The translations under genes and the position numbers were made by a program. Shown one piece after another: positions 2,669 through 36,483 of a DNA stretch of 64,000 nt. The stretch covers positions 1-64,000 of the IMG/VR virus record IMGVR_UViG_3300001041_000002; one strand, written 5' to 3'. Within the stretch, counting starts at the first letter, position 1, and the number at the start of each line of letters is the position of its first letter. Source of the DNA: a virus. The notes below the pieces were generated by a model. It saw only the letters and a list, made by a program, of their open reading frames with translations, made no database searches and was not told the DNA's origin.

Positions 2669-3625
2669 TTATCTACCTGTGCTTATTAAAAGATTTTTCT
2701 TTATTTCTTTGGGAACGATTGATGTCCTCATTCTATTAAGCGCACCACATTCACATCTATATGTTTCATATTTACCAGTCTGCGTATAATAGTTTCCAAC
2801 GTAAGATAAATGCGATCCACCACAATTTGCACATACTGGCTCAGTAGATTCGACGTATAAACCAACGTTTGGATGAGCTTTGATCCAAGGCCTAAGTCTC
2901 AAATAAACTTCCTCAAGTAGCTCAACATCATGACGATTGTATATTTCCATGTACTTAAGGGATTCATCATCACCCTTCATACACCTATCCCATAGGCTAA
3001 AATCAGTATCCAGTTTAACATCAAATCCAAAATATCCAGCAAGTGCATCCAGCTTATTTGAACTAAACCCAAATTGTTTTGAGGCAATCACCTTTGTGTC
3101 AATACTTTGGTATGGAGTTGTTGGTGGAAGTCCATTTAATAAAAATCTAGCATTAAGTTTCTTTTCGTCAAAAGCTAGACCATTGTGTGCAACTACTATG
3201 TCGGCTTCATTAATTAAATTCCATATTGAAGCAGTAATTCTTTTATCATCTTCTGCCAACGCTTCAGCACCAGTTAATCTATCAGACATAACGTCTGGCG
3301 AAAATAAAAATTTTGCACTCCACGAAAGCATGAACCATTCTGATATGGTTTGATCTAAATAAATATTTTGTTTCCATCTAGACCAGATATACGCACGAAG
3401 TGGGCTCGTTTCGATATCAAATATTAATATCTTGGGCAATCTTGGACTTGTAACCTTATTTATATAGCCATAAGCAATTGTTTTCCTGGCTATTTTCTTT
3501 GCAGTCACTACATCTTCTGCTGTTGCTGATAGGTACTTAGCTAGCTTGTTTCGACCCATATCAAGCATATACCGCCTATTTAAGAACTCTTCAACCAACC
3601 TTTGCACCTCTCTGTTATCTTCCAT
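2669..3625 (-). CDS. DnaQ-like/RNase H-fold 3'-5' exonuclease with C-terminal zinc ribbon
   Basis: 318 residues. After a short helical N-terminal region, an RNase H-like exonuclease core is clear: DIETS at residues 70-74 (Exo I), ADIVVAHNG near 141-149 with D153 (Exo II), and YNRHDVELLEEV at 229-240 (Exo III with D233). Cys pairs at 265/268 and 291/293 form a C-terminal zinc ribbon. The family degrades DNA from 3' ends with two metal ions. It lies within the leftward structural block, 3 bases upstream of a neck gene, which is unusual for a replication enzyme; packaging or DNA processing are options. A candidate promoter lies at 3663-3670. Confidence 0.8.
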   Translation of the reverse strand: MEDNREVQRLVEEFLNRRYMLDMGRNKLAKYLSATAEDVVTAKKIARKTIAYGYINKVTSPRLPKILIFDIETSPLRAYIWSRWKQNIYLDQTISEWFMLSWSAKFLFSPDVMSDRLTGAEALAEDDKRITASIWNLINEADIVVAHNGLAFDEKKLNARFLLNGLPPTTPYQSIDTKVIASKQFGFSSNKLDALAGYFGFDVKLDTDFSLWDRCMKGDDESLKYMEIYNRHDVELLEEVYLRLRPWIKAHPNVGLYVESTEPVCANCGGSHLSYVGNYYTQTGKYETYRCECGALNRMRTSIVPKEIKKNLLISTGR

Positions 3626-34255: not shown

Positions 34256-34863
34256 TATTTTATGTCTAATTCTTTAAGTAACCTAGTCTTTACAAAAGTA
34301 TCGACAGTCAAATCTTTATTGTCAAATCGAATAACTCTTTTTACATTATGTAGATGAACTAAATTTTCAGTCCTCAACCTATCGTAAATCTTTGCATTGT
34401 AAGAATAGTGTTGTTGTCCATCAATCTCTACAACCACATTATGCTCTGGCAAATAGAAGTCCACTAAATAAAATGAGAATCCAACAAAATATATTTTCTG
34501 ATACTCATACTTAATACCCATCTCAGTCAACAGCAACTTCATCTTTAATTCAGCAGGAGTGGCATTGTTAATATTTTCATTCTGCAGAAACATAGCGTTT
34601 CTAGCTTTATCACAAGCATTAACTCTAAACCTAGCCAGCTCATCATGTGGCTTACTCACAATATTAGCCAAAATAAAATCATAAGCTTCCTTACTAATCC
34701 CCATATTAAGCAGTCCTCGGACTCCATTAGCATTTAACTCTAAGCACGCATCTGGGCCTACTACATAGGGCTTTCTATTCTCTTTCTTTTCAGAGTCTTT
34801 GTAAACTCTAACCTTAACTTTCTTTCTACTCATCTCTCTATAATTTACTTTGTTGATACTCAT
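34255..34863 (-). CDS. DUF559/Vsr-like PD-(D/E)XK nuclease fold protein
   Basis: 202 residues. A basic N-terminus and a helical middle are followed by a restriction-endonuclease-like core: ATPAELKMKLLLTEMG (Glu105), then FYLVDFYLPEHNVVVEIDGQ with Asp135 and the ExDGQQH motif at 146-151. DUF559 and very-short-patch-repair nucleases share this pattern. Expected activity is metal-dependent DNA nicking or cleavage; the target is unknown. The gene is preceded by a long structured leader (34893-35163) and a consensus promoter. Confidence 0.7.
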   Translation of the reverse strand: MSINKVNYREMSRKKVKVRVYKDSEKKENRKPYVVGPDACLELNANGVRGLLNMGISKEAYDFILANIVSKPHDELARFRVNACDKARNAMFLQNENINNATPAELKMKLLLTEMGIKYEYQKIYFVGFSFYLVDFYLPEHNVVVEIDGQQHYSYNAKIYDRLRTENLVHLHNVKRVIRFDNKDLTVDTFVKTRLLKELDIK

Positions 34864-34892
34864 GACAACATCTCGTACGCAAGTTTCCTACC

Positions 34893-35163
34893 GTATCAAA
34901 GAATCGTTACCGAAACTCTATTTTAACATTATGATGCCATTGGCGTCAGCGTAGTGCGATCTTTTGAATTCCCTGCTAGCTACTGTCATCTCCTCTGCCT
35001 CTGATTCTGGGCCGTAGTCCTATTGCAATACCAAATGATTTTACACCATAATGCCAGTTTGTCTCTACCGGGGATAACTTACCTCTATTTAAGGATTACA
35101 ACCCAATGTCTTTTGCCCTACTAGAATTAACGGTCGAGCCTGAACGCGAGAGTCTTTTGATAC
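34893..35163 (-). ncRNA. structured leader RNA of the nuclease gene (unassigned)
   Basis: The gap of 430 bases between genes holds a GC-enriched segment closed by GTATCAAAGA (34893-34902) and TCTTTTGATAC (35153-35163), ten pairs with one bulged base. A full consensus promoter on the minus strand (35188-35219) would start the RNA about 18 bases outside the closing stem. The RNA ends 30 bases before the nuclease ATG at 34863. Inner pairings were not resolved. It could be a cis-acting leader or an independent small RNA; no terminator separates it from the gene. I could not match it to tmRNA or a riboswitch. Confidence 0.55.
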
Positions 35164-35187
35164 ATCAATAACTCAAGGGAGACGACA

Positions 35188-35219
35188 CAAATATACAACA
35201 TTATTTTATAACCACCAAA
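35188..35219 (-). promoter_or_regulatory. consensus promoter for the leader RNA and nuclease gene
   Basis: The minus strand reads TTTG (35216-35219), a 20-base spacer and TATATTTG (35188-35195), a complete Bacteroidetes promoter. Predicted start near 35180. Confidence 0.75.
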
Positions 35220-35539: not shown

Positions 35540-35903
35540 AATACATGTATTTACCTATCATACGGGAATAACTATAATAAGGTTACATAAATTTTTTGCG
35601 GTGAAAATTTTTCAGAAAAAATATTTTTTTTTGCAAAACTAAAATTATTGAATATCAATGAGTTCACTAACCAACAAGCATAAATCGCGGTGGCTTCGAT
35701 TGAGATTGGGTTCTTCCCCGGGGTCTTTCTCTCTCTGTTTGGTTTGTGGATTCCGTTGGGCGATTTTTCACCTTTACTAACTCTTGGCGTTGATGTTGCA
35801 GTTTCTGCGATGTCATAGCTATATTGTTGCAGCCTCGTTGACTGTATATAGTATTAAAATCCACGCATAGAACCTAACTATCGTGATCTTGTTATAGCCG
35901 TGT
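35540..35903. other. left part of the divergent hub, no supported gene
   Basis: About 360 bases between the leftward and rightward arms. It begins with an AT-rich stretch carrying a TAGTTTTG box on the minus strand (35634-35641) that could serve the gene at 35539. From about 35680 the base composition becomes GC-richer (for example the CCCCGGGG-like patch near 35720), similar to the structured RNA that follows. A 65-codon minus-strand frame here looks accidental. Confidence 0.4.
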
Positions 35904-36343
35904 CGCTACAGCGTGTTGGGCTTATAATAAACATACTGCGGGCAGAGCGAGACTGCCATCATTAATAACCTTTCAGGCTATATACAGAAGTAGACTATCT
36001 ACAACTGTATCATACAGCAAGCGTTCAGTCCGTAAACTCTGTTTAATCCAAGATCGTGTGGAGGTGCACGTGCGTGAAGCCCAGAGGAAAGTTCGGTCAC
36101 TTCGTAGTTGTATAGCTCAATCCATTATGGTCAACCACTACTAGGCTAGGCAGGATATCAGCCAGATAGATAGATTAGGTTGGCCGTAATGTGTTGATTA
36201 ATTTGCCTCGAGGATGCCGCAGTATTGTGGCGCTATATATGTAGTCCGTCAGCCACCAAGCTTTTGGACAGTTTCACCGCGCGACACACTAGTTCTTTAA
36301 TTAAGACGTAAGTGCTCGCCAGATATATGCAGTTAGTGTAGCG
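35904..36343 (+). ncRNA. large structured RNA of the divergent hub, with RNase P RNA-like blocks
   Basis: No frame is open, GC content rises well above the surroundings, and CGCTACA (35904-35910) pairs with TGTAGCG (36337-36343) to enclose about 440 bases. Inside, GAGGAAAGTTCGG (36084-36096) resembles the conserved GAGGAAAGTCCGG block of bacterial RNase P RNA. GCTTTTGGACAGTTTCACC (36260-36278) resembles the 3' end of E. coli rnpB (GCTTATCGGTCAGTTTCACC). AAGTTCGGT (36089-36097) can pair with ACCAAGCTT (36255-36263) as P4 would, with one mismatch, and GTAAACT (36032-36038) with AGTTTCAC (36270-36277, one bulge) as P1. The specificity domain is missing and P2/P3 are not convincing. Strand follows these matches. 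It may instead be an unrelated large phage RNA of the GOLLD/ROOL kind. Confidence 0.45.
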
Positions 36344-36483
36344 GTGTTTATTAGCTAAGTAATTGAGGCAGAGAGCGTGAGAGGAGAGAACTAACCTTCC
36401 ATCCCCCTTAATCGCTCATATCCTAAATCACAATATTTCCTTACATATTAACAATCGCTAATTAACAATCTAAATTATAAGCT
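36344..36483. other. leader region of the first rightward genes
   Basis: 140 bases between the large RNA and the first rightward gene. The first part is GA-rich (GAGGCAGAGAGCGTGAGAGG) and the rest AT-rich. No TAnnTTTG box is present, so early transcription from here may use another promoter type, such as one for a phage RNA polymerase. This is inference only. Confidence 0.35.

Follow-up and report, generated by a model that had tools for sequence, protein, structure and literature searches.

Evidence for a phage RNA family absent from Rfam and linked to terminase genes

The put RNAs of phage HK022 and the nut leaders mediate processive antitermination, and antiterminator sites are often present more than once per genome. 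Like these leaders, the RNA family described here is structured and promoter-proximal on phage operons, but its members are larger (230–330 nt), have another fold, occur once per record and are tied to the late region, and antitermination is offered as an analogy. The pRNA of phage phi29 is a packaging RNA and resembles the present family in being a phage RNA that has its own promoter and is connected with packaging. The family RNA differs from it in being larger, in having no Rfam match and in accompanying the terminases of unrelated phages, and a packaging role is putative. A structured RNA beside a DUF559 gene is also seen for group I introns with DUF559/Vsr homing endonucleases (as at L045), whereas the family RNA has neither an intron core match nor exons and starts right after a promoter-like element. 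GOLLD and ROOL are large, ornate phage RNAs (PMC12286853). They are likewise conserved and intricate, and a GOLLD-like RNA shares the L197 contig with a family member, but the family RNA is smaller, differs in sequence and structure and has no Rfam match.

The window analysed here is a stretch of 64,000 nt from a virus record of 101,419 bases (IMGVR_UViG_3300001041_000002), a 101-kb crAss-like phage with a terminase that matches those of crAss-like and other Bacteroidota phages. The relevant features, with R1 denoting the covariance model described below, are as follows.

35188..35219, minus strand: Bacteroidota-type promoter TTTG-N20-TATATTTG (TTTG 35219-35216, N20, TATATTTG 35195-35188), from sequence and recurrence in relatives
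~34864..35183, minus strand: conserved structured RNA, from L002 identity, covariation and the R1 match; ends approximate, start placed from the promoter
35115..35139, minus strand: helix H1, GCUC/GGGC (35139-35136 with 35118-35115), from alignments and the family-level swap control
35067..35111, minus strand: core, from covariation counts over 46 distinct sequences
35111-35108, minus strand: AGAC of the core
35107-35102 with 35072-35067, minus strand: core helix H2, AUUGGG/CCCGGU
35094-35091 with 35085-35082, minus strand: core hairpin H3, AAAUA loop
34924..35056, minus strand: long-range helix H4, 14 pairs (35056-35043 with 34937-34924), from the L002 comparison and the family-level swap control
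34876..34895, minus strand: 3' hairpin UACG/CGUA (34895-34892/34879-34876), covarying in L002 and L003
34255..34833, minus strand: DUF559 (Vsr-like) nuclease gene, 192 aa, from Pfam PF04480 and alignment with L002 and L003
26618..28912, minus strand: large terminase gene (phrog_6681, 1.2e-101)

A sequence-only reading of this region had proposed a structured leader behind a perfect promoter, upstream of a nuclease-like gene. Perfect promoter matches are not rare by chance here (8 observed in the window against 3.4 expected, with a maximum of 8 among 60 simulated sequences), and the match alone is therefore little proof. That the promoter is real is borne out by its recurrence. At the equivalent position L002 has TTTG-N20-TATCTTTG with a spacer sequence that differs from the window's, the same promoter region is found in five more relatives (L093, L094, L095, L098 and L099), and the gut phage cr111_1 carries TTTG-N20-TATCTTTG ahead of its RNA copy, with the elements and the N20 spacing of the window. 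A -10-like element lies immediately 5' of the RNA in nearly all lineages, and the family shares with put- and nut-type RNAs a promoter-proximal position on a phage operon.

The RNA expected from this promoter is 82% identical between the window and L002 across 313 nt, with compensatory changes in the 14-pair H4 (three changes), in one small hairpin and in the 3' hairpin, where UACG/CGUA is replaced by UAUA/UAUA. The suggestion of a promoter-driven, structured RNA is upheld, with transcription from the promoter presumed, and the RNA is conserved. The 10-pair closing stem described earlier fared less well. It exists in the window (35163-35156 with 34900-34893, GUAUCAAA/UUUGAUAC) but is not conserved: L002 retains a 6-pair G-U-rich remnant and the stem is not seen in L094. 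We set it aside as unsupported, for it lacks conservation and clashes with the 3' hairpin, for which there is covariation. Shuffled sequence folds as well as the leader does (z-score of the minimum free energy +1.23; 91 of 100 shuffles fold at least equally well), so folding energy gives no support. The proof of structure is comparative, drawn from aligned sequences, and the folding energy of the window is ordinary.

A profile built from the first three copies led to further crAss-like members (L094, L098, L147, L095 and L166). They share H1, AGAC, H2 enclosing H3 (with an AAAUA-type loop), UUGUCCCC, the long-range H4 and GUUAAAA. A search pattern made from the H2/H3 core of six members (the window, L002, L094, L098, L147 and L166) matched 78 viral loci, nearly all with the common anatomy; some invariant columns are built in, because a sequence pattern was used to collect the members. 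R1, a covariance model of H2/H3 trained on 39 sequences including the window, recovered 47 of the 48 loci supplied. It scores the window, a training sequence, at 52.9 bits (35119-35048), and among untrained sequences it scores L094 at 46.7 and cr111_1 at 33.5 bits; L095 reaches only 16.7 bits. R1 models the core alone, and diverged copies could be missed.

Over 46 distinct sequences 85.9% of the pairing cells are paired. The covariation score is 0.489 against 0.247 for shuffled data (none of 500 shuffles reaches 0.489) and 0.039–0.166 when the partner is slid. In the swap control H1, the outer stem P1 and H4 all pair better with their own arms than with the arms of other members. H1 is short in the window, which itself scores low in that control, and has 5–6 pairs in most members. 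The untrained member cr111_1 violates the search pattern, with an H2 (GGAGGG/CCCUUC) that is different and yet pairs. The RNA is ∼230–330 nt long across the family, with an invariant core, and occurs as a single copy in 21 of 21 records.

Covariance-model searches against Rfam 15, permissive E-values included, gave nothing covering the RNA, and blastn of family members against named phages and plasmids gave no real match; cr111_1 was found by the model. A literature search, limited to the collections searched, gave no description of the family. Relative to this catalogue and literature, the family is new as an RNA family. That the window RNA belongs to a phage RNA family absent from Rfam, and that this family is linked to terminase genes, we regard as very likely. 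R1 had no match in 10 of 11 named phages or in most terminase relatives, and the RNA is therefore not universal. The whole sequences of the cultured phages crAss001, DAC15, PhiCrAssBcn16, phi14:2 and FpV4 were without a match, and cr111_1 is metagenomic.

In the window the RNA and the terminase gene share one strand, with the terminase gene ~6 kb downstream. Of the 27 loci for which 6.5 kb or more of sequence is available downstream, related phages included, 26 have a large terminase gene 2.2–6.3 kb downstream on the same strand, and two terminase families are represented. By our own estimate the chance of a terminase this near a random point is very roughly a tenth. PHROGs confirmed the crAss-type terminase family for all ten proteins tested. 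A genomic link to the packaging motor gene, as looked for in a pRNA, is thus present in 26 of the 27 loci. The cr111_1 copy is located at the divergence point of the two arms, the beginning of the late arm, with the terminase 13.5 kb further on. The first downstream gene varies by lineage (amidase, small late genes, tail fibre or DUF559), and a conserved 3' motif is positioned ∼20–30 nt ahead of the first start codon in several of them.

The gene that follows the RNA in the window is indeed a DUF559/Vsr-like gene, as had been read from the sequence. It matches PF04480 at 3.8e-9 and 36.8 bits, above the curated cut-off of 20.6, and alignment with L002 and L003 places its start at 34833 rather than 34863. 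A DUF559 gene follows the RNA only in the window, L002, L003, L094 and L098. In L095 the RNA has no DUF559 gene but a GIY-YIG gene on its upstream side, L147 and L166 have the RNA and no nuclease there, and other phages also carry the RNA without DUF559. In the close relatives L093 and L099 the promoter is kept, and at its end the sequence switches to an unrelated RNA-like stretch, here called type B (L093:4300-4630 and L099:228-463), each followed by a DUF559 gene whose protein is 36% identical to that of the window over 105 residues only. Type B was considered as a widespread family in its own right and rejected, being found only in these two. From the DUF559-free members and the type-B swap the nuclease looks like a movable neighbour. 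Its occurrence is patchy, it is similar to annotated homing endonucleases, and the homologue in Staphylococcus phage SAP1 is annotated as intron-associated. As judged from these comparisons, the gene probably encodes a nuclease of the homing type and came to lie next to the RNA. A DUF805b-like motif (RF02914) lies downstream of the DUF559 gene both in L003 (917-949, 46 bits, above threshold) and, as a weak match of 17.6 bits, in the window (34062-34034, minus strand).

The best explanation of these observations, with a probability of roughly 0.6, is a folded family RNA behind its own promoter that acts on the late programme, with DUF559 a mere neighbour. The earlier proposal that the leader may sense a ligand or protein and so control the nuclease is not supported: L095, L147, L166 and other phages have RNA copies without DUF559, in L147 a promoter-like sequence precedes the next gene, and L093 and L099 have another RNA and another DUF559 behind the same promoter. 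A nuclease-specific riboswitch or other cis-regulatory leader is extremely improbable even though the RNA sits directly upstream of the gene and the two are probably on one transcript in the window, since the first downstream gene differs between lineages. As a riboswitch for the downstream nuclease it was rejected, for the DUF559-free members deny it a constant association with the gene, and control of the nuclease by the RNA is unlikely. The RNA and DUF559 might instead form one functional cassette, an RNA-guided or RNA-regulated nuclease. RNA and nuclease were exchanged together behind the same promoter in L093 and L099, which leaves a partnership possible at low probability, and a scan of DUF559 loci showed that long noncoding stretches precede other DUF559 genes as well. 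Against this stand the same DUF559-free members, the promoter-like sequence that the L099 nuclease has of its own after the type-B stretch, and the DUF559 loci elsewhere, where R1 found no copy; we consider such a cassette improbable. A general RNA-nuclease pairing was also rejected from the scan: a number of the leaders proved to be coding or unremarkable, one contained a group I intron, and R1 gave no match among them. Two other loci (L027:2507-2901, probably cr106_1, and L015:915-1098) combine a Bacteroidota-type promoter, a long noncoding leader and DUF559, with no R1 match. The best fit is the other option raised by the sequence-only reading, a separate RNA transcribed from that promoter.

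How a late-acting RNA would work is a matter of several readings. It lies upstream of the packaging and structural genes, oriented with them, and, if transcribed from its own promoter, could act on the late programme. Most plausibly, a promoter-proximal leader would load onto the host RNA polymerase or protect the transcript and thereby secure expression of the long late region, as put or nut leaders do. This mechanism agrees with the promoter-proximal position and with the fact that no protein neighbour is constant, and we put it forward tentatively. It is opposed by the promoter-like sequence in L147, which separates the RNA from the next gene, and by the frequent multiplicity of antiterminator sites, as the family RNA occurs once. 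A free, trans-acting RNA, either a pRNA-like part of the terminase motor in DNA packaging or a binder of a host or phage protein, would accommodate that L147 sequence, and the single copy per record and the linkage to two terminase families fit a packaging role. In several lineages, however, the RNA, like a leader, extends almost to a start codon, inspection by eye showed no terminator behind it, and phages with related terminases lack it; we therefore think this rather unlikely. We consider it very improbable that the RNA is a self-processing ribozyme such as a diverged group I intron. The pairings shared by the window and L002 hint at a pseudoknot, and in L045 a DUF559 gene is preceded by a group I intron (L045:2158-2368; Rfam, 86 bits), but no group I match was obtained in the window (RF00028, E up to 5) or its relatives at permissive E-values, and with a -10-like element directly before the RNA there is no upstream exon.

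For the leader and the free RNA alike, the absence of an R1 match in most terminase relatives and in 10 of 11 named phages is evidence against an essential part in late expression or packaging. That an undescribed RNA class, spanning two terminase families, is integral to the late-gene or DNA-packaging machinery is quite possible, at a little under even odds. If so, it could be a second natural packaging RNA, for example, or an RNA that reprograms host RNA polymerase for late genes; should antitermination be right, the mechanism would be a variant of an already known kind. An RNA that is conserved, present once per record and linked to the terminase genes of many phages from gut, freshwater and marine sources, yet absent from the catalogue searched, points to an unrecognised step in genome expression or packaging, and the family offers a concrete, testable element for phages full of unknown genes, crAss-like phages included.

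A pattern scan of a genome collection gave two genuine bacterial copies (L251 and L255) among 13. The L255 copy (L279:9962, minus strand) lies in a restriction-modification locus of a Salinivirgaceae genome, where it is flanked by a C5-methyltransferase locus and a Vsr-like gene, with neighbours that look chromosomal and not phage. The RNA is therefore not confined to phages. On the L197 phage contig the family RNA is accompanied by the GOLLD-like RNA (2970-3506, 142.7 bits, slightly under threshold) and by a tmRNA-like match. In the window, ∼800 nt without a listed ORF lie between the divergent arms (35640-36440, plus strand); an Rfam search of this stretch gave no match, and it is possibly another RNA, with a 38-nt island (35759-35796) at 97% identity in L093, L098 and L095. 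Finally, the crAss-like phage cr106_1 carries a gene annotated as a TROVE-domain RNA-binding protein (L264:16222-17643), a possible RNA-binding partner.
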